A stretch of 64,000 nt of DNA, from NCBI RefSeq assembly GCF_000732485.2, contig NZ_JAQV02000007.1, positions 165,884 through 229,883 of the forward strand, in the 5' to 3' direction. Position 1 is the first letter of the stretch, and each line of letters starts with the position of its first letter. Positions 10,938 through 64,000 of this stretch are shown in pieces. The position numbers were made by a program, and so were the translations under genes. The notes beneath the pieces are model-generated. The model did not search any database. It saw only the letters and a program-made list of their open reading frames with translations, and was not told the origin of the DNA. Origin of the DNA: Bacillus sp. SJS (GTDB lineage: Bacteria; Bacillota; Bacilli; Bacillales; Bacillaceae).

Positions 10938-11498
10938 ATGAAAACCAAGCTGATTGCAAACATGTATGATTTCGAATGCAAGCTCTTCCGAAGCGTCAAC
11001 AGACATTTTGACCGCAAGTTTCTCAACTTGTACTTTCGGAATATCACGCATGTTGGAGGAGCGACTCTAACCATTTTAGTCTGCTTAGCCATGATTTTAT
11101 TTGCGCAGGGCCCTGTTAAATGGGTAGCGATAGCAAGTGCGGCATCTCTTGCATTAAGCCACATTCCAGTTGCCATAGTAAAAAAAATGTATCCAAGAAA
11201 ACGGCCGTATATTTCACTTTTGGAGACGAAGGTGCCTGCCAATCCATTAGAAGATCATTCTTTTCCATCCGGACATACAACAGCTATTTTTTCCGTCATT
11301 ATCCCTTTCTTGCTTTTCATGCCCAGTCTTGCCTTGATTCTGATCCCTTTAGGAATTAGTGTGGGGCTTTCCCGTATCTATCTTGGACTTCATTATCCTT
11401 CTGACGTGCTGGCAGGATGCCTGCTTGGCACATCTACAAGCATCATGACATTTATGATGGTCAGCAAGTGGTTCCCGAATCTGCTGCATTTCACTTAA
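10938..11498 (+). CDS. PAP2-family membrane phosphatase
   Basis: A 186-residue protein with about five membrane spans and all three parts of the phosphatidic acid phosphatase type 2 site: K-x6-RP (KKMYPRKRP, about residues 79-87), PSGH (FPSGHTTA) and SR-x5-H-x3-D (GLSRIYLGLHYPSDVL). The active site faces outward in this family. Substrates include undecaprenyl, phosphatidate or phosphatidylglycerol phosphates. Its start ATG has AAAGGAG upstream. The glycosyltransferase gene begins 35 bp downstream, so the two probably act together on a lipid-linked product. That link is inferred from position. Confidence 0.85.
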   Translation: MKTKLIANMYDFECKLFRSVNRHFDRKFLNLYFRNITHVGGATLTILVCLAMILFAQGPVKWVAIASAASLALSHIPVAIVKKMYPRKRPYISLLETKVPANPLEDHSFPSGHTTAIFSVIIPFLLFMPSLALILIPLGISVGLSRIYLGLHYPSDVLAGCLLGTSTSIMTFMMVSKWFPNLLHFT

Positions 11499-11533
11499 TT
11501 ATTCGGTTCGACTTTAATGTCTGGAGGGGTTCG

Positions 11534-12676
11534 ATGAAAATCGCATTGTTTACTGATACGTATGCTCCCGATGTCAACGGTGTAGCCCGTACATTAAAAC
11601 GGTTCACAGACTACCTTGAAGCGAACGGCCATGAATATCGTGTATTTGCACCAGAGAGCACGAAAGAAAGTTTATTTTCCAGTCACATCCACCGTTTTGC
11701 GAGCTTCCCTTTCTTTTTATATCCTGAATGCCGTGTTGCCTGGCCCAATATGCTTCAGGTTAAAGGAGAGCTTCAAAAATTCCAGCCTGATCTCGTCCAC
11801 ATTGCCACTCCCTTCAACATCGGTTTATGCGGAATGCATTATGCAAAAAAATTAAACATACCAATCGTTGGCTCCTATCACACGGATTTCGATCAATATC
11901 TTGAGTATTACGACCTTCAGTTCTTTTCAAAAATACTTTGGAAATACATGCATTGGTTTCACAGACCATTTAAAAAGCTTTTTGTGCCATCTCCCGAAAC
12001 CCTTGAACAGCTAAAGATACAAGGGTTCCCCAATTTGCGTATTTGGGGGAGAGGGGTAGATTGTTCCGTGTTTTCTCCAAGTTTAGAGGGTTTTGATGCT
12101 CATGAGCAATACAATATTAAAGAACCATTTATCCTTTCCTATGCAGGCCGTCTCGCTCCCGAGAAAGACATTCAGACATTGATGGCCGCTGCGAAAACGA
12201 TGCCTGCCCATCTAAGGGAAAAAGTTCATTTTCTTATCGTGGGAGACGGTCCATCCAAGCTTGAAATGATGAAGGATGCTCCTGAAAATATGACATTTGC
12301 CGGTTATGTCAGCGGCAGAAATCTTGCAAAAATTTATGCTTCTTCTGATTTGTTCGTCTTCCCATCTCCTACAGAAACCTTTGGAAATGTTGTCCTTGAG
12401 TCCCTTGCCTGCGGAACCCCTGTTATTGGCGCGAACTCCGGAGGCGTAAAAAATATCATTTCTCAAGGAAAAAACGGGCTGCTGTGTGAACCGCGTAACC
12501 CTGAAGCATTTATTGATGCCATTTCCTCTTTGCTTGAAAATCACCGATTACGGGAGGAAATGTCCCGTAATGCAAGAACCTATGCCTTAACCCAGACCTG
12601 GGACAGCATATTCGATGGACTTTTAAACGATTATGAAGAAGTTATCATTCATCCTGAAGAAGTTCGCTACGCTTAA
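11534..12676 (+). CDS. GT4-family glycosyltransferase
   Basis: A 380-residue GT-B fold transferase. The N-terminal MKIALFTDTYAPDVNGVARTL is the standard opening of bacterial GT4 lipid mannosyl- or glucosyltransferases. Further landmarks are HIATPFNIGLCG, GSYHTDFDQY and the donor-binding C-domain with GRLAPEKD, VGDGPSK and PSPTETFGNVVLESLACGTPV, which contains the E-x7-E pair. No signal peptide is present; it should work on the cytoplasmic membrane face. ATG 11534 has GGAGGGG upstream; an earlier in-frame ATG lies inside the PAP2 gene. Likely forms a two-gene unit for making or modifying a glycolipid with the PAP2 phosphatase. The acceptor is unknown. Confidence 0.85.
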   Translation: MKIALFTDTYAPDVNGVARTLKRFTDYLEANGHEYRVFAPESTKESLFSSHIHRFASFPFFLYPECRVAWPNMLQVKGELQKFQPDLVHIATPFNIGLCGMHYAKKLNIPIVGSYHTDFDQYLEYYDLQFFSKILWKYMHWFHRPFKKLFVPSPETLEQLKIQGFPNLRIWGRGVDCSVFSPSLEGFDAHEQYNIKEPFILSYAGRLAPEKDIQTLMAAAKTMPAHLREKVHFLIVGDGPSKLEMMKDAPENMTFAGYVSGRNLAKIYASSDLFVFPSPTETFGNVVLESLACGTPVIGANSGGVKNIISQGKNGLLCEPRNPEAFIDAISSLLENHRLREEMSRNARTYALTQTWDSIFDGLLNDYEEVIIHPEEVRYA

Positions 12677-12686
12677 TCACCACCAT

Positions 12687-12726
12687 AAAAAAGGCCCCGG
12701 CTCTTCACCAGCCGTGGCCTTTCTTT
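12687..12726. terminator. bidirectional terminator
   Basis: GGCC-CGGCT pairs with AGCCG-GGCC around a seven-base loop, with A- and T-runs on either side. It separates the convergent glycosyltransferase and oxidoreductase genes. Confidence 0.75.
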
Positions 12727-12727
12727 A

Positions 12728-14140
12728 TTAGCGGAACCACTTAATGTATCTGGCCGCCCATTTTTTCAAGCCCCCGTCAAAGAGCTTTTCCCTCCAATAT
12801 AAATCTGCAGCCGACTGGATGCCGGCTGCCCGGTTCGGATAGGGGTATACCATTCCCGAAAGACTTCTCAGCTTTTTCCCGCTGCTTTTTGCAAAAACAA
12901 CGGATTGCATCCAATCCCCTGCCCCCTGGCCAACAGCGTGGGCACCCAGGATCTTTCCTTTTTGATCCATAATTAATTTGACAAATCCGGTTTCCTGTTC
13001 GGTTACAAACCGATCCACTTCATCCAAAGCTTTTTTATAAATGGTCACATTGCCATGCTGTTCTTTTGCTTCTTTTTCCGTTAACCCAATGTGAAAAACC
13101 TCCGGCCTTGTATAAACGTTCCACGGCATATGATCATATGAAATCTTTCCTTTTACACCAAATAGGGCATTCTGTACAATGGTTTTCCCCTCTTGGCCTG
13201 CTGCGTGCGTGAAAAGATACTGTCCGATTACATCTCCTGCCGCGAAGATGTTCTTCTGGTTCGTCTGGAGATAACCGTTCACTTTTACATGACCTTTATC
13301 ATCCAGGTCTACTCCAGCTTTATCCGCTTTCAGTCCTTTTGTATTCGGAACGCGCCCCATAGCTAAAAGAATTTCATCGGCTTCAAGTATTTCTTCTTTT
13401 TGATCTGATCTAAGATGCAGGACCTTATTCTGTCCTGAAAGAGAAACCTTTTCCACTTCTGTATTTGAGCGGATCTCCAATTCTTCAGACAGCTTAGCGG
13501 TTATGAAATCTCTGACATCCTCATCCTCTTTAGCAAGGATTTTTGAAGAACGGTCTATGATGGTGACCTCGCTGCCGAGTCTCGCGAAGGCCTGTCCCAT
13601 TTCCACGCCAATTGGCCCTCCGCCTATAATAGCCAGCCTTTTCGGGAAAACCGGCATAGAAAAAATGGTTTCGTTCGTTTGAAAGCCAGCTTCCTTTAAT
13701 CCATCAATATCCGGGATGAGCGGACTTGAACCCACCGCGATAACAAACCGCTTTCCCATGAGCTTTTGTCCGTTCACTATCACTTCTTGCGAGCTTGAGA
13801 ATTCGGCAGTACCGTGAAAAATGTCTACTCCAAGCTGTTCAAAGCGGTCATCCGAATCATGATGCTGAATGGTTGAAACAGCTGTCTTTACGGCATTCTT
13901 GACCTGATTAAAATCTGCGTTCAGCTCATATCCGTGTCTGGCGGCTGCATTCCTTCCTATGTAGAATTCATTCGCCTGATGAATCAGTGCCTTAGACGGC
14001 ACACAGCCTACATGCAAACAATCTCCGCCGAGAGTATCCCGTTTATCAATAAGAGCAACCTTTGCGCCAAAGGAAGCCGCACCGGCAGCAGCTGTTAATC
14101 CGCCGGAGCCCCCTCCAATGACAATTAAATCATACTTCAT
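12728..14140 (-). CDS. FAD-dependent pyridine nucleotide-disulfide oxidoreductase (MerA-like, no metal domain)
   Basis: A 470-residue two-dinucleotide-fold flavoprotein. FAD motif IVIGGGSGGLTAA opens it. The redox disulfide is in GGDCLHVGCVPSKA (about residues 39-52), and the NAD(P) motif IIGGGPIGVEMGQ and second FAD block NIFAAGDV follow. It has the dihydrolipoamide dehydrogenase/mercuric reductase architecture but lacks both the N-terminal heavy-metal domain and the C-terminal vicinal cysteines that MerA needs, so mercury reduction is unlikely. It ends in a basic, aromatic tail (KKWAARYIKWFR) that could touch the membrane. The ATG at 14140 has GGGGGAAG upstream. It is the last gene of a six-gene operon. 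Its natural disulfide or quinone substrate is unknown. Confidence 0.85.
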   Translation of the reverse strand: MKYDLIVIGGGSGGLTAAAGAASFGAKVALIDKRDTLGGDCLHVGCVPSKALIHQANEFYIGRNAAARHGYELNADFNQVKNAVKTAVSTIQHHDSDDRFEQLGVDIFHGTAEFSSSQEVIVNGQKLMGKRFVIAVGSSPLIPDIDGLKEAGFQTNETIFSMPVFPKRLAIIGGGPIGVEMGQAFARLGSEVTIIDRSSKILAKEDEDVRDFITAKLSEELEIRSNTEVEKVSLSGQNKVLHLRSDQKEEILEADEILLAMGRVPNTKGLKADKAGVDLDDKGHVKVNGYLQTNQKNIFAAGDVIGQYLFTHAAGQEGKTIVQNALFGVKGKISYDHMPWNVYTRPEVFHIGLTEKEAKEQHGNVTIYKKALDEVDRFVTEQETGFVKLIMDQKGKILGAHAVGQGAGDWMQSVVFAKSSGKKLRSLSGMVYPYPNRAAGIQSAADLYWREKLFDGGLKKWAARYIKWFR

Positions 14141-14153
14141 TTCTGCTTCCCCC

Positions 14154-14735
14154 CTACTTGAGTAATCGTTTCGCTTCAAACAGTCTTTGAAAAGCTGTAA
14201 ACATTTCAACAGCGAAGAAGAGCAAGGTCATCCAAACAAGCTGGCCGCTGAAGATAATCATCAGTGAAAAAAGGATAAACCCTTCTGTCCGTTCCGCCAC
14301 TCCTGCCTGATAGTAAAAGGATTTCACACCTTGTTTTTCACTAAGAGCACCCACGGTCAAAAAGATCGTCATGGAAATAATAATGGAAACGCTTAGTAAA
14401 AGAAGAGCCCACTGCGCTTCGGGGTAAGCGAAGGCAAGGCCTAAAATTACACTGATCTCCACTACCCTGTCAAACGTAATGTCAAGAACGGTTCCCCAGG
14501 CGGAAGGCTTCGTTTTTCTGGCCATTGTTCCATCGACCGCGTCCAGAAAGCCGGAAATCCATAAAACCGCTACTGCAAGCAGAGGCTGCCCCACATACAC
14601 AAAAACCCCAGATGACAATCCGATTAAAAATGCGATTCCTGTTACTTGATTCGCAGTGAGCTTCCACCTCAGTAAAACAGAGGCCGTCCCATCAATTGCA
14701 GGCTGCACATATTTCCTTCCATGCGTATCAAGCAT
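14154..14735 (-). CDS. CDP-alcohol phosphatidyltransferase family membrane enzyme
   Basis: A 193-residue membrane protein with the complete family signature D-x2-DG-x2-AR-x8-G-x3-D-x3-D (begins DAVDGTMAR, ends GTVLDITFD, about residues 67-91), so the Mg-dependent active site is intact. Five to six membrane spans follow. Enzymes of this class transfer a phosphatidyl group from CDP-diacylglycerol to an alcohol such as glycerol phosphate, inositol phosphate or serine; the acceptor here cannot be read. The start overlaps the TVP38 gene by 8 bp and the oxidoreductase starts 13 bp downstream. In E. coli, YnjF, a protein of this family, also sits beside ynjBCD. Confidence 0.85.
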   Translation of the reverse strand: MLDTHGRKYVQPAIDGTASVLLRWKLTANQVTGIAFLIGLSSGVFVYVGQPLLAVAVLWISGFLDAVDGTMARKTKPSAWGTVLDITFDRVVEISVILGLAFAYPEAQWALLLLSVSIIISMTIFLTVGALSEKQGVKSFYYQAGVAERTEGFILFSLMIIFSGQLVWMTLLFFAVEMFTAFQRLFEAKRLLK

Positions 14736-15390
14736 CCTTCTTCACCTCATTTTCCTCATTCGAAAAGAGCCATTTCTTCATTTTTTTTCTAAAGAGAATA
14801 GGAATGATGGCAAGTATGATAAAAATGCCAATGGCAATAAAAATGATCATTTTATTATCTGATGTAAAACTCGAGCCAAGGAAGCTGTAGGCAAACGTAC
14901 CAGGTATGATTCCAATAATGGTCGCGAGCAAAAAGGAGCCCCAGCGAATGGTCGTCAGGCCGGCCGCATAGCTGATCAGGTCGAAATTTACGATTGGCAG
15001 GATCCTCAGCACGAGAACATAGAGAAAACCATTCTTTTCGATGATCTTTTTTAAAGAACTGATCCATTCGGAATCTGGAACCATTTTTCTGCCGAAGGTA
15101 CGAGAGAGAAAGAATGCAACCAGTGCGCCTCCGCTTGCACCTGCCATTATATAGATCATTCCGGAAATGGGACCGAATGCGAGCCCTCCCGCCAGTGACA
15201 GGATCGAAGCTGGAAAAAGGGTCAGAGGACGAACTGTATAAAGCAGAATATACACGACGGGCCCAGCCGCACCAAGTGATAAAATCCATCCCTTAATCAT
15301 TTCCGGACTTACGTTCAAATAAGTCTGATTAAACCATATGAGAAGGCCGGCGGCGATAGCAAGCAGCAGCAGTCTAGCTATTTTTTTCAA
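14728..15390 (-). CDS. TVP38/TMEM64 (VTT domain) membrane protein
   Basis: A 220-residue integral membrane protein of the DedA superfamily. The VTT region (about residues 35-170) includes LSLAGGLAFGPISGMIY and VLRILPIVNFDLISYAAGLT, standard for this group, with four or five spans and a basic C-terminal tail (FRKKMKKWLF). Related eukaryotic VTT proteins are lipid scramblases and DedA proteins recycle lipid carriers, so a lipid-flipping role is plausible but not shown. The start is a TTG at 15390 with GAGGAGG nine bases upstream, inside the ATPase gene (17-bp overlap). E. coli ydjX and ydjZ encode the same family near ynjBCD. Confidence 0.82.
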   Translation of the reverse strand: MKKIARLLLLAIAAGLLIWFNQTYLNVSPEMIKGWILSLGAAGPVVYILLYTVRPLTLFPASILSLAGGLAFGPISGMIYIMAGASGGALVAFFLSRTFGRKMVPDSEWISSLKKIIEKNGFLYVLVLRILPIVNFDLISYAAGLTTIRWGSFLLATIIGIIPGTFAYSFLGSSFTSDNKMIIFIAIGIFIILAIIPILFRKKMKKWLFSNEENEVKKDA

Positions 15391-16327
15391 GGAAAGCAGC
15401 CTCCTCAGCGTTTCTGCAGATGTAAACAGTCTGCCCTTCTTTTAAAGGAAGCGATGATGGCAGTGTGATCCACTGTTCCCCGGAGTCCATCGCAATTCTG
15501 AAAAAAGACTGACCGTATTTATATAATTCCCCTTCAATTCTGCCTTTCCAAGCATGCTCAGAAGGGACTTCAGATATCCGGAGCTTGTGAGAAGGAATAA
15601 ATTCCTGCTTTTGCATCATGCCATCTCCATAGAAGGATGCCGCCTTTTCATTTGCCGGCCGCAAATAAATCTCTCGTGCTGTCCCCTTCTGAAGAATGGC
15701 TCCTTCATGCAAAATGGCAATCTCGTCGCCGATCATCGCTGCTTCTTCCATATCATGTGTAACAAAAATGGATGTAATGTTTTGCTCCTTAAGCAGGCTT
15801 TTCACCCAAATTCTCAATTTATCTCTCAAAAGAGGATCCACGTTCGCAAATGGTTCGTCCAGCAGCAAAAGCTTCGGCTCAAGCACCAGGGCTCTTGCGA
15901 GTGCAGCCCTTTGCTGCTCCCCTCCGGACAGTTCATCCGGGTACTGATTGGCCGCGTGCAGCATTTCAGTCTTTTCGAGCATCTTTTTTACTTTCTGCTC
16001 TCTTGCTTCTTTTTTTACTTTATGAATCTTAAGACCATACTCTACATTTTCGACAACGGTCATATGAGGAAACAGCAGCGCCTGCTGAAAAACGAGAACC
16101 ACCTCTCTTTTTCTTGCGGGAACACGGGTTACATCCTTTCCGTTCAAGAAAAATTGACCCTCATCCAGGGCTTCTATCCCTGCCAGGCACTTAAGGAGGG
16201 TGGACTTTCCTGTCCCGGAAGGCCCTATAAGAGAAAGGATTTCCCCCTTCTGAATAGAGAGGTGAATTCCGTCTAAGATTTTCTTCTTATGAAATCGCTT
16301 CGTACCATTGAAAACTAAATAAGACAT
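15374..16327 (-). CDS. ynjD: ABC transporter ATP-binding protein, YnjD-like
   Basis: A 317-residue importer ATPase with Walker A GPSGTGKST, Q-loop LVFQQALLFPH, signature LSGGEQQR, Walker [14 protein letters not shown] and H-loop THDMEEA. The last 90 residues (from about 225) form a TOBE-like beta domain with ITLPSSLPLKEGQTV, making it longer than E. coli YnjD, which is close to a bare ATPase. The ATG at 16327 follows GGAGG embedded in the end of the permease gene. It energises the two-domain permease upstream. The ligand is unknown. Confidence 0.82.
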   Translation of the reverse strand: MSYLVFNGTKRFHKKKILDGIHLSIQKGEILSLIGPSGTGKSTLLKCLAGIEALDEGQFFLNGKDVTRVPARKREVVLVFQQALLFPHMTVVENVEYGLKIHKVKKEAREQKVKKMLEKTEMLHAANQYPDELSGGEQQRAALARALVLEPKLLLLDEPFANVDPLLRDKLRIWVKSLLKEQNITSIFVTHDMEEAAMIGDEIAILHEGAILQKGTAREIYLRPANEKAASFYGDGMMQKQEFIPSHKLRISEVPSEHAWKGRIEGELYKYGQSFFRIAMDSGEQWITLPSSLPLKEGQTVYICRNAEEAAFLEKNS

Positions 16328-16330
16328 TTC

Positions 16331-17989
16331 TCAAAACCTCCCTTTATATGGAGCAAGGATCCGGTACACCGCTTCAAATGCTATCCAAACTCCGATGGGA
16401 ATGATGGCAAACAGCAGTGAGAAAGCGGCCATAACTGCTGTATCCGCCTGTTCAAAATAAGGAAAATAGACAAGAGCAAGCGTCAATACACTCCCTCCGC
16501 CTATTAAGCTTGTTAAAATAAACTGGCCAAGCGATATAACAAAAATCAGGAATGCAGAGGAACGGAATGAAGAAAGCAGGAGCGGAAGATGGATGGACAT
16601 AAAAATCTCCAATCCTGATGCTCCAAGCGTTTTAGCCTGCTGCTCAAAGCTTTGCCCCATTTGTTCAAAGCCTGCTCTGAATATTTTGATGGTATACGGA
16701 AGAGTTGGGAGAAGCTGAATCAGCACGACCCCGCTCCACTCATTTGCCAAACCGAGGCGGATAAACGCTATATGCAATCCCATTGCAATAAGCAATGCAG
16801 GAATTAGAATTGGAGCGAGAAGAATTGTCTCCGCGAGCGTCTTTCCTTTAAATTGCCGGAAAGCCAAAGCCCGTGCCGCTGGAATGCCTGCTGCAAAGTT
16901 CAGCAGCACGACAGCCGTTCCGATACCGACTGATGTCCATATGGACTGTACAAGCAGCGGATCTTCTGCAATCACCCTCCAGGCTCTCCATGTAAATTCC
17001 GAATTCAAGAGATGATTCCGGTCTCTTTGCATCACACTGCTAGCGATTAGAGCACCAATCGGAAGAAATACGAAGAGTAAATAAATGCTGAGAACAGCGG
17101 CGGAGCCTTTTTTCCTGAAAACGGTGATTCCAGAACTGGACGGTACCATTCTTCTTTTTCTGCCCCATAAAAAATAGAAAATAGCAGTCACCAATATAAT
17201 TAAAACGGTGACGGTGATCATCGCCGCATATGCCAATGGGCGCTGTGACCAATCCCCGTTGTAAAACCAGTCAAAAGCCAAAACAGAAACCATCTTAGGG
17301 AATGTGATCCCAAGCAGTGCCGGTACCTCATAAGCTGTCAGGATAAAAGCGAATAAGATCAGAAAGGTCTCAATAAGGACAGGGAACACCACTGGCCATT
17401 CTGCCGTTTTAAAAACGTCCCACCGCGATCCCCCAAGTGAGGTAATGACGTCCTTCCTCCTGCCATCCATAGAAAGATAGAGGGGCAGGAGCATCAAAAT
17501 CACAAAAGGAATTTCCTTCGTGACGTACGTAAGGATTATTCCTATCCCCCATTCGTCTCTGATCAGGACGGGAAATTGCCCGGGCTGCTGCAGAAAACCA
17601 ATCTCTGTCAGCACCTGAGGAATCCAGCCCGTCTGATCAAGCAGCAGCAAAAGCATGTATCCCCAGACAAAATGGGGAAAAAGAATGGGGGACCAGGCAA
17701 GCAGCTTAAAAAAAGGACGCCTCATAAATGGGGCTATTTTTCTCGTAATCCATAATCCTGCTGCAATGGCGAGCAGCGATGAGATCAAGGCAAGTGAAAA
17801 ACTGTATAAAAAGGACATTCGAAAGCTTTTCCCATTCCAGATCTCTGCATAGGCTTTTAAACTTATATTTCCATCCATTGCTGCACTTTCATACAGTGAA
17901 AAAAGAATTCCGGACAGGAGCAGGATTCCCGATAAAACAAGAGCCGGTATAACCGCACCCGGCACCGATCTATTTTTGAACCACTTCAT
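16331..17989 (-). CDS. ynjC: ABC transporter two-domain permease, YnjC-like
   Basis: A 552-residue permease made of two fused binding-protein-dependent transport domains, each about 250 residues with about six spans. EAA-type loops occur in both halves (ITSLGGSRWDVFKTAEWPVV near 185-204 and AKTLGASGLEIFMSIHLPLL near 445-464). This layout is that of the FbpB/ThiP/YnjC group, where one polypeptide replaces the permease dimer. Its start lies 20 bp inside the end of the receptor gene and its stop is 3 bp before the ATPase, so the three are translationally coupled. Confidence 0.85.
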   Translation of the reverse strand: MKWFKNRSVPGAVIPALVLSGILLLSGILFSLYESAAMDGNISLKAYAEIWNGKSFRMSFLYSFSLALISSLLAIAAGLWITRKIAPFMRRPFFKLLAWSPILFPHFVWGYMLLLLLDQTGWIPQVLTEIGFLQQPGQFPVLIRDEWGIGIILTYVTKEIPFVILMLLPLYLSMDGRRKDVITSLGGSRWDVFKTAEWPVVFPVLIETFLILFAFILTAYEVPALLGITFPKMVSVLAFDWFYNGDWSQRPLAYAAMITVTVLIILVTAIFYFLWGRKRRMVPSSSGITVFRKKGSAAVLSIYLLFVFLPIGALIASSVMQRDRNHLLNSEFTWRAWRVIAEDPLLVQSIWTSVGIGTAVVLLNFAAGIPAARALAFRQFKGKTLAETILLAPILIPALLIAMGLHIAFIRLGLANEWSGVVLIQLLPTLPYTIKIFRAGFEQMGQSFEQQAKTLGASGLEIFMSIHLPLLLSSFRSSAFLIFVISLGQFILTSLIGGGSVLTLALVYFPYFEQADTAVMAAFSLLFAIIPIGVWIAFEAVYRILAPYKGRF

Positions 17990-19202
17990 TCGTCCAGTTC
18001 TCCTTTAACCAGTTCACATACCGTGAATCAATCTCCGGAAGGAAAGCATCTTTTAATTGCTCCGGCTTCAACACGCTGTCTCCCCGCTTAATTTCATCGT
18101 ATTCAGCCTTCTGCTGATTGGATAGCTTTGAATAATCCAAAGCCGGACTCTCCCCCCAATATTCCGGTGAGAGCTTTTTGATTTGTGCTTCCGGTGAAAG
18201 CAGGAAATTTATTGACGCTAATGCCCCCTCTTTATTTGAGCTATTGGCTGGTATGGCGAGGAAATGCGTATTCCCAATCGAGCCTGATTCAAGAACAAAG
18301 GACCGGGTTGATTCAGGGAATACGCCTTTTTCAATAAGACTCTCTGCGCGGGCCTCATTATAGCCCATTGTCATGGCAACCTCCCCATTAGCGTAGAGCT
18401 TATCAAGCTCGGTCAGATCATTCGGATAGAGCTTTCCCTTCTTCCAGAGATAGGGCTCCAGCTCATTTAAATCCTTCCAAAGCCGGTCACTGCCTGTTTT
18501 TGCAAATTTTTCATCATATCCTTTATCGAGAAGACCCTTTGCCCCGCCTGCTGATTCATAAAACAAATGTCTGATAAAAGCATTTCCTGTGAAATCTTTC
18601 GGATCAGGGTAGGCGAACTGGCCGGGATTGGCTTTCACCCATTTCTTTAAATCCTCTATCGTTTTAGGCGGATCCATAATTTTAGATGAATCATAATGGA
18701 AGACAAACTGCACTTTCCCCCATGGTGCTTCATAACCCTTTGTTTCCAGACCGAAGTCATAAAGGTTTTCAAGGGATTTTGTATCGTAGTATTTCGTGTA
18801 ATTCGGCAGTTTTTCAGTAATCGGGCCAAGAAGCAGATTGTTTTGCTTGGCGTTCTTAAAGTTCTCTCCATTCAGCCAAACAATATCGATCGTTCCTTCT
18901 GTCTGTCCTGTTCTTTTCTCTGTTTCCAGTTTTTGAAGAATTTCAGGGGTATCCATTGGAACTCTTTCTAAAAGGATATTGTTTTTTTCTTTGACCGCCG
19001 GTTTCACGTACTCATCTATATAAGCATTGATCCCAGGGTCACCGCCCCACATGAAGAGCCTCACTTTTCTCCCCGCAGCCTCTTTTTCAATATCCGACCA
19101 GCTGGATGCAAGAACTTTTTGGCTGTCCTTTTCTGTATCGGCCTTGGAAGAGCAGCCTGCTAATGCCAGTATAATCATAAATAAGACCAATAATCGCTTC
19201 AT
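17970..19202 (-). CDS. ynjB: ABC transporter substrate-binding lipoprotein, YnjB-like (COG4134)
   Basis: A 410-residue receptor with signal peptide and lipobox LAGCSSKAD. The opening LFMWGGDPGINAYIDEYVKP, the block DIVWLNGENF and the segment YPDPKDFTGNAFIR are typical of the YnjB family rather than of ordinary iron or spermidine receptors. The ATG at 19202 has AAAGGGG seven bases upstream; a TTG two codons earlier is less likely. It is the first gene of the operon with ynjC, ynjD, TVP38, CDP-alcohol transferase and oxidoreductase genes. I know of no established ligand for this family. Confidence 0.85.
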   Translation of the reverse strand: MKRLLVLFMIILALAGCSSKADTEKDSQKVLASSWSDIEKEAAGRKVRLFMWGGDPGINAYIDEYVKPAVKEKNNILLERVPMDTPEILQKLETEKRTGQTEGTIDIVWLNGENFKNAKQNNLLLGPITEKLPNYTKYYDTKSLENLYDFGLETKGYEAPWGKVQFVFHYDSSKIMDPPKTIEDLKKWVKANPGQFAYPDPKDFTGNAFIRHLFYESAGGAKGLLDKGYDEKFAKTGSDRLWKDLNELEPYLWKKGKLYPNDLTELDKLYANGEVAMTMGYNEARAESLIEKGVFPESTRSFVLESGSIGNTHFLAIPANSSNKEGALASINFLLSPEAQIKKLSPEYWGESPALDYSKLSNQQKAEYDEIKRGDSVLKPEQLKDAFLPEIDSRYVNWLKENWTNEVVQK

Positions 19203-19320
19203 GCACAATCCCCTTTTACGTTAAGATAGACAGATATTAATACCCCAAGAGACCTATATTGAATCCTCAATCAGAACATCAAGCATCCAAAAGGCCGGCC
19301 ATTCAAGCCAGCCTTCCATT

Positions 19321-20463
19321 TCACTTAAATTCATCTGCGAATTCTCCATAGCCTTTTTTCTTAAGATCTTCCTTTGGAATAAATTTCAGCGCTGCAGAGT
19401 TCATGCAATAGCGGAGTCCTGTAGGCTTTGGCCCGTCATCAAAAACGTGCCCAAGATGAGAGTCAGCGTACTTGCTTCGTACCTCTGTCCTTGTCATAAA
19501 CAGACCGTTATCCTCTTTTTCAACGATATTCCCGGGAACAAGCGGCTTGGTGAAGCTTGGCCAGCCGGTTCCAGAATCGAATTTATCCTTTGAACTGAAC
19601 AGCGGTTCACCAGATACGATGTCTACATATATTCCGTCGTCCTTCAAATCATGATAGGCATTGCTGAACGACCGCTCCGTCCCATCCTTTTGGGTCACCT
19701 TGTATTGCTCTGCAGAAAGAGTTTTTTTCAGCTCTGCATCAGAAGGCTTTTTAAAATCCGCATAGCTTGAGACAGCTTTTGATTTTTCCTTTATTTTCAC
19801 TTCACGGTCTTTCCCCCAGGCTTCATCTAAAAACTGGTCGCGTCCTGAATTGTTTCTGTAAAATTTATATTGAACCGAGCTCTTTTTATAATAATCCTGA
19901 TGGTATTCTTCAGCTTGATAAAACGTATCCGCGCTTCTGATTTCAGTCACGAGCTTGGAATCGAACCTTTTCGATGCCTGCAGATCTGCTTTGGATTTTT
20001 CTGCTGCTGCTTTTTGCTCCTCGCTGTGATAGAAAATAGCGGACACATACTGATCTCCTCTGTCTACAAATTGACCGCCGCTGTCTGTCGGATCGATCTG
20101 CCTCCAAAATACTTGAAGCAGCTCATCATAGGAAATTTTAGAAGGATCGTAAACAACCTGCACCGCTTCAACATGTCCAGTGGAGCCTGAGGAAACCTCT
20201 TCATAGGAAGGATTTTTCTTTTCTCCGCCTGTGTAGCCTGAAATGACTTCGTAAACGCCGTCCAGTTTTTCAAACGGCGGTTCCATGCACCAGAAGCATC
20301 CTCCTGCAAAGGTTGCTGTCGCTTTTGTTGAATCAGCCTCCACCGCTTCAACAGGCTGTGTTCCATAGGACCGTTTCGTAAAATATTCCCCCAAATTCGG
20401 GGCAACCACAAACAAAATAGCTGCAATACCCGCTATGACAATAATCGGCACCCAGATTTTCAT
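19321..20463 (-). CDS. msrAB: membrane-anchored peptide methionine sulfoxide reductase MsrA-MsrB fusion
   Basis: A 380-residue two-domain enzyme. Residues about 4-24 form an uncleaved N-terminal membrane anchor without lipobox, so the enzyme faces outside. The MsrA domain (about 50-205) carries the catalytic GGCFWC; the MsrB domain (about 235-370) carries SGTGWPSF and catalytic RYCMNSA. The MsrB part lacks the zinc-binding CxxC pairs and has Thr where a resolving Cys often sits, so recycling may need an outside reductant. The ATG at 20463 uses an AAAGGAG at the end of the kinase gene 2 bp away; an ATG two codons earlier is too close to that site. It repairs oxidised methionine in surface proteins and is co-transcribed with a two-component system. 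Confidence 0.9.
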
Positions 20464-20465
20464 GG

Positions 20466-21509
20466 TCATTCTCCTTTCTGTTTTAGCGGAAGCGAAAACC
20501 AAAATTCACTTCCTTTGCCCTCTTCGCTTCTAACACCCATCTCTCCATGATGGAGAGCGATAAATTCTTTTGCAATCGCAAGGCCTAGCCCTGACCCCCC
20601 CAGTGCTTTGTTTCTTGACTTTTCTGCTCGGTAAAACCGTTCAAAAATCCGCTTCTGATCGGATAATGTTATTCCCTGTCCCTGATCCTTCACGGAAAAT
20701 AGGACGGATTGGTCCGCTTGCTTTACTCTAAGCAAAATTACACTGCCAACAGGCGAATGGGCAACTGCATTTTGAATAAGGTTCGATAAGACTCTCATAA
20801 TCTGATCTCTGACAATTGGGACTGCCGGTATTCCATTCTCCATAAGGACTTCTGGCTGCACTTGTTTTTCTTTAAAAATAAGCTCAAACTGCTGGAGAAC
20901 ATCCAGAACAAGCTGATCAGCATGGACGGTTTCAGGACGGAATGGTATCTGCTTGCTATCAAGCTGGGACAGTTCGAATAGCTCTTGAATCAGCTTGCTT
21001 AAACGATTGGATTCCTTTTTAATAGTTTCAAGGTACTCATTTCTCTCCTGCTCACTTTTCACTACGCCATCCTGAAGTGCTTCAACATAGGACAAAATGG
21101 AGGCAATTGGTGTTCTCAGATCATGCGATACATTGGCAATCAGCTCCGTTTTGTAAGCCTCCGATCTCTTTACTTCCTGAAACATGTGATCCAGCTTCTT
21201 CGCCATTTCATTAAAATGGCTGCCAAGCTCTTTAATTTCAGCGGGACCTTTTTCAGAAACCCTGACCGCAAACTGGCCCTCTGACATTTTCTTCGATTCA
21301 GATTTCACCTGGTTTACAGCTTTCATAAGCGGACCCGTTAGAAAAAAATGAGCCAGAGCAGAAATGGAACCCGCAGCGAAAGTAATAATCGTCAAGATTA
21401 AAATGGATTCATTAGGGATCGACATCTGCACAAAACTAATCAGCAAAAACATCAGGATCAGCAGTGTGCTTAAAAAATTTGCCAAGATGAGAAGCGTTCT
21501 GATTTTCAT
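20466..21509 (-). CDS. sensor histidine kinase
   Basis: A 347-residue membrane kinase: two adjacent N-terminal membrane spans (about 5-29 and 34-58) with almost no extracellular loop, a HAMP domain (about 60-115), the HisKA dimerisation helix with phosphoacceptor in [12 protein letters not shown] (about 125-136), and an ATPase domain with N box, DQGQGI and GGSGLGLAI. The lack of an extracytoplasmic domain means it senses within the membrane or via a partner. It overlaps its response regulator by 4 bp and abuts msrAB. Confidence 0.9.
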
Positions 21510-22195
21510 ACCGGCTGCTCCAATTTATAGCCGATTCCCCATACCGTTTTAATATACTGAGGTTCTGCTGGATTGAGTTCAAGCTTCTCTCTCAGTCTCC
21601 GGACATGTACATTGACGGTATTTCCATCTCCTGAAAAATCATATCCCCACACCTTTTCAAGCAGCTGGGACCTGGAGAATACTTGAGACGGGTGACTGGC
21701 AAGCAGCCAGAGCATATCAAACTCTTTGGCGGTCATCTCTATGATTTTTTCACCCGCTTTAACTTGTCTTGTCGATAATTCGATGGAAATAGAGCCGACT
21801 GTAATGGACTGCTTTTCTGCGATTTTGTATTTCGAGGTCCGCCTTAACATGTTCTTCACTCTTAATACAAGTTCTCTGGGGCTGAACGGTTTGGTTAAGT
21901 AATCGTCCGCCCCTAAGGTTAAGCCAAGGAGCCGGTCCCGTTCCTGTCCCAGAGCCGTGAGCATGATGATTGGAACATCCTCGTCCTCCATTCGGATTTC
22001 CTCTGCAGCAGTCCAGCCGTCCTTTTCAGGCATCATGAGATCAAGAACGATCAAATCTGGTCTTCCCCTTTTCCACTGCTCGACCGCCTCAAATCCATTG
22101 ACCGCTGAATCAACCCTGTAGCCTTCTCTTTCCAGATAGCGCCGGCAAACATCGAGAATAGCAGGTTCATCATCAACAAGTAATATTTTCTGCAT
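21506..22195 (-). CDS. OmpR/PhoB-family response regulator
   Basis: A 229-residue regulator with a receiver domain (acidic DDEP pocket, phospho-acceptor in VLDLMMPEKDGW near residue 51, conserved Thr in MLTALG and Lys in YLTKPFSPRE), a linker, and a C-terminal winged helix (about 130-225, with TAKEFDMLWLLASHPSQVFSR and VHVRRLREKLE). AAAGGGG lies before the ATG at 22195. First gene of the three-gene unit with the kinase and msrAB, so it probably controls its own operon in response to envelope oxidation or cell-wall stress; the signal is unknown. Confidence 0.9.
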   Translation of the reverse strand: MQKILLVDDEPAILDVCRRYLEREGYRVDSAVNGFEAVEQWKRGRPDLIVLDLMMPEKDGWTAAEEIRMEDEDVPIIMLTALGQERDRLLGLTLGADDYLTKPFSPRELVLRVKNMLRRTSKYKIAEKQSITVGSISIELSTRQVKAGEKIIEMTAKEFDMLWLLASHPSQVFSRSQLLEKVWGYDFSGDGNTVNVHVRRLREKLELNPAEPQYIKTVWGIGYKLEQPV

Positions 22196-24009: not shown

Positions 24010-24141
24010 ACTCTTATCGCTCAAGGACTACAGCCTTGCGTCAGGTTAGCACCTTTGCATGAGTGAAAACATTACGTTTTCAAGTCTTGCAGGTTGCTGG
24101 GCTTCATAGGGCCTGTCCCTCCGCCAGCTCGGGATAAGAGA
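24010..24141 (-). promoter_or_regulatory. SAM-I (S-box) riboswitch of metK
   Basis: Reading minus from 24141: CTCTTATCCCGAGC, then the conserved GGCGGAGGGAC and GAAGCCCAGCAACC blocks, a P3 stem (AAAACGTAATGTTTT), AAGGTGCTAACCTG, and the closing CGATAAGAG that pairs with the start as P1. This is the classic order of S-box elements. A terminator follows and then metK 163 bp away. SAM binding favours termination. Confidence 0.95.
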
Positions 24142-40688: not shown

Positions 40689-40798
40689 ATGCCATTTAAA
40701 ATACGCGCACTTATTCAACTGGCGCAGCTTCGGGGCTGCAAGGGTGTTTGAGAGGAAGGGCTTACGCTGTGTAGGTGCTGCAAAAATACTTATGAACA

Positions 40799-43302: not shown

Positions 43303-43487
43303 GAAAAGCGGAGGGCGCTTGCTCAGCTGTGAGAGACGGTGGAGCCCCCGACCGAGAGGCGCCCAAGTTAGGTTGTTCAGCTAAAGGCGCGACGTCCTGT
43401 CGCAACGCTGAACGGGCCTTCATCGTGAAGGCCCTCGACCGAGAGAGCGAAGCGGCCGAACAGCTAGCGCCAGGAGCTGGACAAAAG
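43303..43487. repeat. structured dispersed repeat element, about 185 bp
   Basis: GC-rich block in AT-rich intergenic DNA, with outer arms GGCGCTTGCTCAGCTG and CAGCTAGCGCC partly complementary, and a perfect inner hairpin GGGCCTTCA-TCG-TGAAGGCCC (43413-43434). It ends AGGAGCTGGACAAAAGT. Blocks of this kind (GCGGAGGGCGCTTGC...GAGCTGGAC) recur in intergenic regions of Bacillaceae. No coding potential. Lies downstream of the ytkA start and after the luxS terminator. Confidence 0.65.
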
Positions 43488-63367: not shown

Positions 63368-63832
63368 ATGGTACGATCCATACTTATTTTTGTTATTACA
63401 TATGCCTTATTTTTAATAAGCGGATTTTTGTTTCAAATTGATCAAAGCTGGTATGATGCGCTGAATAAACCTGCTTGGACACCTGCCGGAGGTACAATCG
63501 GAATGATTTGGTCAATTCTTTTCGCTTGTATTGCGGCTTCAATTACCATCATTGATCGAAAAGCAGGGGGACTTAACAACCTTAAGCCTGCATTTTGGAT
63601 CATACTAATTGTGAATTATCTCTCTAATCAATTGTTCAGCTTTTTCCAGTTCAGTCAAAAAAACCTTGGTCTTGCGACGATTGACTGCGCCATTGTTGCC
63701 ATTTCTGCAATCATTTTAACTGTCTTTGCGTTAAATATTCGAAAAATAGCGGGTATTCTGCTTGTTCCATATGTGCTGTGGACTTCATTTGCCACCTTCC
63801 TATCGTTTATGTTTTACTCGATGAATTTATAA
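63368..63832 (+). CDS. tspO: TspO/MBR-family membrane protein
   Basis: A 154-residue five-span protein of the tryptophan-rich sensory/peripheral benzodiazepine receptor family. The block WYDALNKPAWTPAGGTIGMIWSILF carries the conserved WxPP-like segment and Trp residues; the C-terminal spans follow the family pattern. It binds porphyrins and affects tetrapyrrole and stress handling; the true role in Bacillus (gene ytaB) is not settled. GGAGGAG precedes the ATG. A group II intron end begins only a few bases after the stop. Confidence 0.88.
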   Translation: MVRSILIFVITYALFLISGFLFQIDQSWYDALNKPAWTPAGGTIGMIWSILFACIAASITIIDRKAGGLNNLKPAFWIILIVNYLSNQLFSFFQFSQKNLGLATIDCAIVAISAIILTVFALNIRKIAGILLVPYVLWTSFATFLSFMFYSMNL

Positions 63833-63835
63833 TCG

Positions 63836-64000
63836 AGTAGGAGGGGGTGATTAACCCCCGACCTCTCACACCACCGTACGTACGGATCCGTATACGGCGG
63901 TTCGAAAGTTTATGAAACCACAATCGTTAATTGTTTTAATCCAAGTTGATTCCAGTACTTGTTAGGAAGGGCTTTGTGGAGAATGGGGTTCTTAGAATTC
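63836..64000 (-). mobile_element. 3' end of a group II intron (domains V/VI), truncated by window edge
   Basis: On minus the segment runs out of the maturase gene into AACCGCCGTATACGG, a four-base loop, CGTACGTACGGTGGTG (a domain V-type hairpin, 63863-63903) and then GGTCGGGGGTTAATC, CACCCCC (domain VI-type hairpin). These are characteristic words at the 3' end of Bacillaceae group II introns. It lies just downstream of tspO, inserted between that gene and whatever follows. The 5' end and most of the ORF are outside the window. Confidence 0.75.
63910..64000 (-). CDS. ltrA: group II intron reverse transcriptase/maturase (partial, C-terminal 30 aa)
   Basis: The last 30 codons of an open frame entering from the right edge, translated minus: NSKNPILHKALPNKYWNQ, LGLKQLTIVVS, stop at 63910. 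The NPILHKALPNKYW-LGL pattern is like the C-terminal end of intron-encoded reverse transcriptases, and the intron domain V follows at once. Only the tail is visible, so RT motifs cannot be checked and intactness is unknown. Confidence 0.65.
   Translation of the reverse strand, partial: NSKNPILHKALPNKYWNQLGLKQLTIVVS

Follow-up and report, generated by a model that had tools for sequence, protein, structure and literature searches.

The window analyzed here, a stretch of 64,000 nucleotides from the 4.15 Mb genome of Bacillus sp. SJS, carries six closely packed minus-strand genes (12728-19202). From the 5' end, they encode the receptor (YnjB), permease (YnjC) and ATPase (YnjD) of an ATP-binding cassette (ABC) importer, a membrane protein of the VTT/TVP38 family, a cytidine diphosphate (CDP)-alcohol transferase and a flavin adenine dinucleotide (FAD)-dependent disulfide oxidoreductase. 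The gene set is real, widespread and uncharacterized, and probably an import-to-lipid system. In the reading that we favor, with a probability of roughly 60%, the operon imports a sugar-like compound that is condensed into a phospholipid head group, with the flavoprotein and the VTT protein acting on this group or on the lipid. YnjBCD would import a hydroxylated, probably sugar-like compound, and the transferase would condense it with CDP-diacylglycerol, the presumed donor. The flavoprotein would likely keep a redox-active part of the head group in the right state by way of a putative electron acceptor, and the VTT protein would likely move or handle the lipid in the membrane, possibly by flipping it. 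The accessible text of the open-licence PubMed Central papers searched yielded no assigned function for the importer or the transferase. The two are widespread and also occur in Escherichia coli K-12. If the reading is true, a so far unassigned phospholipid head group supplied by an importer of its own would amount to new membrane chemistry.

Importer, transferase and their co-occurrence

The families that a preceding sequence-only reading had assigned to the importer, VTT protein, transferase and flavoprotein are borne out by profile scores. YnjB reaches 457 bits against NF008633 (curated cut-off 203), and its AlphaFold2 model (predicted local distance difference test score 94.1) retrieves mostly sugar and glycoside receptors in the top rows of VIA-align, a match of fold only. 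Polyamine or thiamine import, considered from family names, was rejected on matches that all fall below cut-off, though PotD-type receptors are among the top rows of Foldseek. The imported compound is probably a hydroxylated, sugar-like alcohol, with inward transport and its role as acceptor both presumed. The sequence-only reading had also entertained a thiol, for which the analysis yielded no supporting evidence.

The transferase scores 41.3 bits against CDP-OH_P_transf (PF01066; cut-off 22) and retains the complete D-x2-DG-x2-AR...G-x3-D-x3-D motif, present in 32 of 32 alignment rows (A6); the DG-x2-AR active site is therefore intact, as had been noted, and by these sequence features the protein is a class I CDP-alcohol phosphotransferase. 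The window genome has just one further PF01066 enzyme, with a stronger match to the family. Pocket residues were mapped by profile alignment of the 32 rows onto the phosphatidylinositol-phosphate synthase MtPIPS, as described in the accessible text of PMC4634129. Among the inositol-phosphate contacts, R155 and K135 are replaced in all 32 rows and S132 in 29, and the equivalent of R195 is kept throughout. With R155 and K135 thus kept in 0/32 and S132 in 3/32, and with 66.5 bits against the 170 required by NCBIfam PIPSynth, an identity as phosphatidylinositol-phosphate synthase was rejected. The acyl-groove positions M69 and P153 hold no bulky residue in any row, as would suit a diacylglycerol donor.

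The distribution of the transferase follows that of the importer. Among 398 genomes sampled from the window's phylum, YnjB (NF008633 at E <= 1e-60) was found in 30 and the operon-type transferase (A2 profile at 148 bits or more; 15 genomes with only 58-73 bits were left uncounted) in 23, with both in 21; only 9 of the 375 transferase-less genomes have YnjB (Fisher's exact test, 7.6e-26). The 30 YnjB genomes, whose species are not independent, come from 20 families; the transferase is found in 13 of these. Both transferase-only genomes hold truncated copies, one adjoining fragments of YnjC, YnjD and YnjB (L262) and the other a truncated YdjZ (L261). Near-confinement of the transferase to YnjB genomes is expected if it uses the importer's cargo.

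At the level of gene neighborhoods, a survey of named contigs took the best 80 of 584 YnjB relatives by similarity to the window, plus 40 further genome stretches. With E. coli this gave 121 loci, reduced to 110 by merging YnjB proteins of at least 95% identity and to 86 with at least 5 kilobases (kb) on both sides. Weak homologues may have been missed near YnjB, because the regions were searched with purpose-made queries and profiles. Companions in the 86 loci were the transferase (67), VTT (66), flavoprotein (42), dicluster oxidoreductase (20), rhodanese (17), APH-type kinase (11), methionine sulfoxide reductase (Msr; 9), YedE-type protein (9), nucleoside hydrolase (8), glycosyltransferase family 2 (GT2; 7), nucleotidyltransferase (NTase; 7), LPG-type flippase (5), YdjY (4) and AhpD (2); transferase, flavoprotein and VTT protein occur together in 39. 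The searches proposed by the sequence-only reading, for transferase and VTT genes alongside the receptor, thus came out positive, and its expectation of recurrence in distant phyla holds: the set is found in Bacillota, Spirochaetota, Chloroflexota, Alphaproteobacteria and Gammaproteobacteria. Within the family to which the window belongs, YnjB is patchily distributed (over cut-off in 14/80 genomes), and all 13 same-family loci fetched besides the window have the transferase nearby. The YnjB proteins closest to that of the window bear the name Metabacillus, and on this ground the phylum is taken to be Bacillota. By annotation, plasmids of Klebsiella and Pseudoalteromonas combine YnjBCD and the transferase with a TVP38/FAD fusion, and two Rhodobacterales plasmids carry YnjBCD with the transferase; in Deinococcus a lysophospholipid acyltransferase lies beside YnjB.

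The VTT protein matches PF09335 with 88.9 bits (gathering score 33.9); the undecaprenyl phosphate transporter UptA was rejected as its identity (NF052604, 21 bits against 250). One locus (L138:14357-16651) encodes a fusion of a VTT domain with two short-chain dehydrogenase domains.

Exchangeable modules and a possible arsenosugar connection

The head-group and redox modules of these loci are swappable, and in part common to arsenosugar clusters. Against the 67 loci with the transferase stand 11 with a second head-group module (4 with the kinase alone, 7 with GT2), and only one has both (p 2.6e-7). This module consists of an APH-type kinase, to which 7 of the 11 loci add a GT2 transferase and a CofC-like NTase. 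Similarly, the flavoprotein (42 loci) and a YdjY/rhodanese/dicluster module (25 loci) never occur together (p 5e-10). The head-group types are interleaved in an 81-row YnjB tree, the kinase/GT2 label changing 6 times, of which at least 5 are forced; hence a single receptor lineage seems to serve two attachment modules. Transferase-less YnjB genomes more often have a TIGR04283 glycosyltransferase (5/9 against 1/21 with the transferase; p 0.0046). The kinase/NTase/GT2 version, together with the nucleoside hydrolase near 8 of the 86 loci, would fit a hydroxylated, riboside-like ligand. Some clostridial versions (L112, L130, L143, L145, L147, L150) lie beside YedE-type Sulf_transp genes and a GltD-like dicluster oxidoreductase, and these loci also have a LysR regulator of the NCBIfam "selenium metabolism-associated" type (246 bits against a cut-off of 250 in L150).

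The flavoprotein has only two cysteines, C41 and C46, which form the CxxxxC motif; the absence of mercury-binding parts that had been read from the sequence is confirmed, there being no C-terminal cysteine pair and no HMA domain. Among the NCBIfam matches listed it passes no curated cut-off, NF004991 being the best and mercury(II) reductase (MerA) the next. MerA was rejected on score (TIGR02053, 370 against 454 bits) and on the missing C-terminal pair, which we take to be diagnostic. Dihydrolipoyl dehydrogenase and glutathione reductase were rejected on score (TIGR01350, 346 against 409 bits), on position outside their tree branches and on a tyrosine in place of the catalytic histidine before P-T, presumably a hallmark of these enzymes; this tyrosine is not peculiar to the clade, as the sole readable MerA row has it too. 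In a 28-row tree, flavoproteins from ynj loci and from clusters with TIGR04283 and the radical SAM enzyme ArsS form one branch apart from MerA, dihydrolipoyl dehydrogenase, glutathione reductase and RclA (support 100/99). The branch is kept in a 34-row tree (100/97), where it also takes in a basal row of different context. In both trees the ars rows interleave with the ynj rows and require three changes; as rows were picked by context, this interleaving is an argument and not a survey.

The clade was also sought in 160 of the 398 genomes (80 + 80), including 54 of the first 80 picked for YnjB or TIGR04283 and two more picked for truncated transferases, which leaves 104. A line at 500 bits separates ynj/ars rows (at least 524) from MerA-like rows (at most 429). 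Members above it come from ynj loci in three genomes (G000, G049, G247) and from TIGR04283/ArsS loci in two (G313, G426), with none in the remaining 104 genomes. A partial member of 442 bits adjoins TIGR04283 (G103), and a relative of 468.7 bits with one internal stop, from another context (G160, L284), joins the base of the clade, its placement not being firm. The trees and genome searches thus uphold the view that the flavoprotein is part of such systems. Two Planococcus copies (L097, L102) bear a C-terminal DUF1499 domain.

TIGR04283 occurs in 30 of the 398 genomes and ArsS in 11, all with TIGR04283 and none with YnjB; genome co-occurrence of YnjB and TIGR04283 is weak (6/30 against 24/368, p 0.018), the two lying on different contigs in one case (G165). 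TIGR04283 was found outside ynj loci in 25 genomes, from which 20 loci were fetched and five below the curated cut-off left out. Among these 20, ArsS-family radical SAM proteins were recognized in 12 (11 at the 35-bit line), NTase genes in 17 and VTT genes in 14; rhodanese occurs in 7, and YdjY and the flavoprotein in 3 each. Two of the ArsS proteins and one AhpD-like protein were identified individually. An ArsR-like gene (E. coli ArsR query) is present in 7/86 ynj loci against 3/20 TIGR04283 loci. A Pseudanabaena plasmid shows the order TVP38, flavoprotein, arsM, TVP38, arsS. A Burkholderia glumae plasmid has genes for DUF2282, DUF692, a DNA-binding protein, DoxX and a TVP38/FAD fusion. The opposite strand then encodes another FAD enzyme, TIGR04282, TIGR04283 and a phosphorylase of the methylthioadenosine type, with arsS about 6 kb further on. 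In the Klebsiella plasmid these first genes and the second FAD enzyme recur, but YnjBCD and the transferase come next; the paired proteins are homologous (fusions 51% identical over 713 positions, DUF692 44%, second FAD enzymes 35%, DoxX 36%). The DUF2282-DUF692-DNA-binding-DoxX genes precede the fusion in ynj and ArsS-bearing regions alike (L274, L279).

In Synechocystis, slr0304 is presumably arsS. The accessible portions of the respective papers identify ArsM as slr0303 (PMC4010505) and a Tvp38 protein as Slr0305 (PMC3836016), place ArsS and ArsM in the first steps of arsenosugar formation (PMC8552651) and report arsenosugar phospholipids in this organism (PMC11009773). In the accessible text of the literature searched, no gene was found named for the lipid step.

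Among compounds that might be imported, an arsenosugar-type riboside is the leading candidate. We tentatively suggest, as a possibility well short of an even chance, that YnjBCD replaces ArsM and ArsS. An arsenosugar (a dimethylarsinoyl riboside such as the glycerol glycoside) would be salvaged from outside and joined to CDP-diacylglycerol by the transferase in one step, giving an arsenosugar phospholipid, with the flavoprotein handling arsenic redox; in the kinase/NTase/GT2 version the riboside would be phosphorylated, activated and transferred. If true, a lipid-forming enzyme could be named for arsenosugar phospholipids, the E. coli ydjXYZ-ynjABCDEF genes would gain a function, and a microbial route for recycling organoarsenicals would emerge.

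Alternative explanations

Several observations weigh against import of a sugar-like head-group precursor. The receptor structure rankings are split, Foldseek placing polyamine (PotD-type), iron and sugar-phosphate receptors first. The locus sample leans to close kin, the best 80 having been ranked by similarity (54 are Bacillota by title), and the locus counts take relatives as independent. A nearby VTT gene is lacking in 20 of the 86 loci, any redox module in 19, and either head-group module within 9 kb in 9, including two Halobacillus; plasmid copies of YnjBCD in Sinorhizobium and Peptoclostridium have no annotated transferase adjoining. Gene order varies, the transferase standing before or after YnjBCD, and on the opposite strand in Planococcus. 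Neither ArsS nor ArsM was recognized in any of the 86 loci, nor ArsS in any of the 30 YnjB genomes, so that the arsenic version draws on shared partners only. The window genome itself has no ArsS (TIGR04167) match at 1e-60, the best scoring 25 bits against a cut-off of 300, and no TIGR04283 match at 1e-25.

An unlikely though serious competitor is a metalloid or oxidant stress island, in which flavoprotein and VTT protein form a detoxification or membrane-repair core, and importer and transferase supply a protective lipid or reductant, the cargo not being a head group. The MerA-like tyrosine and the rank of MerA among the sub-threshold flavoprotein matches agree with this, as do the position of several Metabacillus copies after msrAB, the Msr genes at 9 of 86 loci and the DUF2282-DUF692-DoxX genes beside two plasmid clusters. 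The transferase, however, is a commoner companion of YnjB than the supposed core flavoprotein (67 against 42 loci), and 44 loci have no flavoprotein of the ynj/ars clade. We consider it improbable that the product of the transferase is a soluble phosphodiester, like that of DIPP synthase, and not a lipid: just one of the 67 transferase loci has a recognized CofC-type NTase near that gene (the search did not extend to other cytidylyltransferase families), and no bulky residues occupy the acyl-groove positions. That the genes are neighbors sharing a promoter for convenience, with no common pathway, would accord with the unfixed gene order and the absence of parts at some loci, but the genome-level co-occurrence, the truncation of both transferase-only copies and the scant overlap of alternative modules make this very unlikely.

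Operon layout and relation to known systems

The gene overlaps of 20, 17 and 8 base pairs (bp) and gaps of 3 and 13 bp given by the sequence-only reading are exact to the base (Table 1), and from this packing the six genes probably share one transcript. The hairpin after the operon is weak evidence for its end, because the scan gave 16 hits of this kind where shuffled sequence gives 11.5 ± 3.9. Upstream, 118 bp separate ynjB from an msrAB gene; a PAP2 phosphatase and a GT4 glycosyltransferase converge on the operon from the other side.

Table 1. Positions of the operon genes and of surrounding features in the window
Feature	Position	Strand	Basis and remarks
ynjB, lipoprotein-type solute receptor (COG4134-like)	17970..19202	-	NF008633; ATG start, TTG possible at 19208
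ynjC, two-domain ABC permease, 552 aa	16331..17989	-	PF00528 (BPD_transp_1) 51.7 bits; 20 bp overlap with ynjB
ynjD, ABC ATPase, 317 aa	15374..16327	-	PF00005 (ABC_tran) 130 bits
VTT/TVP38 membrane protein	14728..15390	-	PF09335; TTG start
Operon-type class I CDP-alcohol phosphatidyltransferase (predicted)	14154..14735	-	CDP-OH_P_transf
FAD pyridine-nucleotide disulfide oxidoreductase, ynj/ars clade	12728..14140	-	Pyr_redox_2 and dimerisation domain; ATG start
Terminator-like hairpin with T run, 3' of flavoprotein stop	12697..12714	-	consensus match only
MsrAB fusion and two-component system	19321-20502 and 20466-22195	-	directly upstream
PAP2 phosphatase and GT4 glycosyltransferase	10938-12676	+	convergent with operon
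SAM riboswitch	24011-24140		Rfam
BsrC	40695-40780		Rfam
Bacillaceae-1 RNA	43365-43431		Rfam
Group II intron	63832-63902		Rfam

Bacterial choline salvage by the phosphatidylcholine synthase Pcs would be alike in principle, as an imported alcohol is joined to CDP-diacylglycerol to give a phospholipid, and differs in its importer, its substrate and in having no known flavoprotein or VTT partner. Phosphatidylinositol-phosphate synthase belongs to the same transferase class, with inositol-phosphate contacts that the operon-type enzymes have mostly lost. DedA proteins of COG0398 fused to PF07992/PF02852 (PMC10127716) likewise unite VTT with this oxidoreductase type; they are reported as a domain fusion, and the accessible text connects them neither with YnjBCD nor with a lipid transferase or ArsS.

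ArsM/ArsS arsenosugar clusters share with the window operon TVP38 and the same flavoprotein clade, and around TIGR04283 the TVP38, YdjY, rhodanese and AhpD-like genes are partners also of ynj loci; these clusters differ in carrying ArsS and GT2/NTase, and the operon-type transferase was recognized in none of the 20 loci. The E. coli genes ydjXYZ-ynjABCD, ynjE and ynjF, listed in part (ydjXYZ-ynjABCD) in an FNR regulon table in the accessible text of PMC3688515, were the parallel drawn by the sequence-only reading, and it stands in part. The flavoprotein is absent there, YdjY (an Fe-S protein), the AhpD-like YnjA and the sulfurtransferase YnjE being present instead, ynjF lies on the opposite strand, and YnjF, 32% identical to the window transferase, has glycine in place of R149; YnjBCD, two TVP38 (DedA-family) proteins and a CDP-alcohol transferase nevertheless occur together, as in the window operon.
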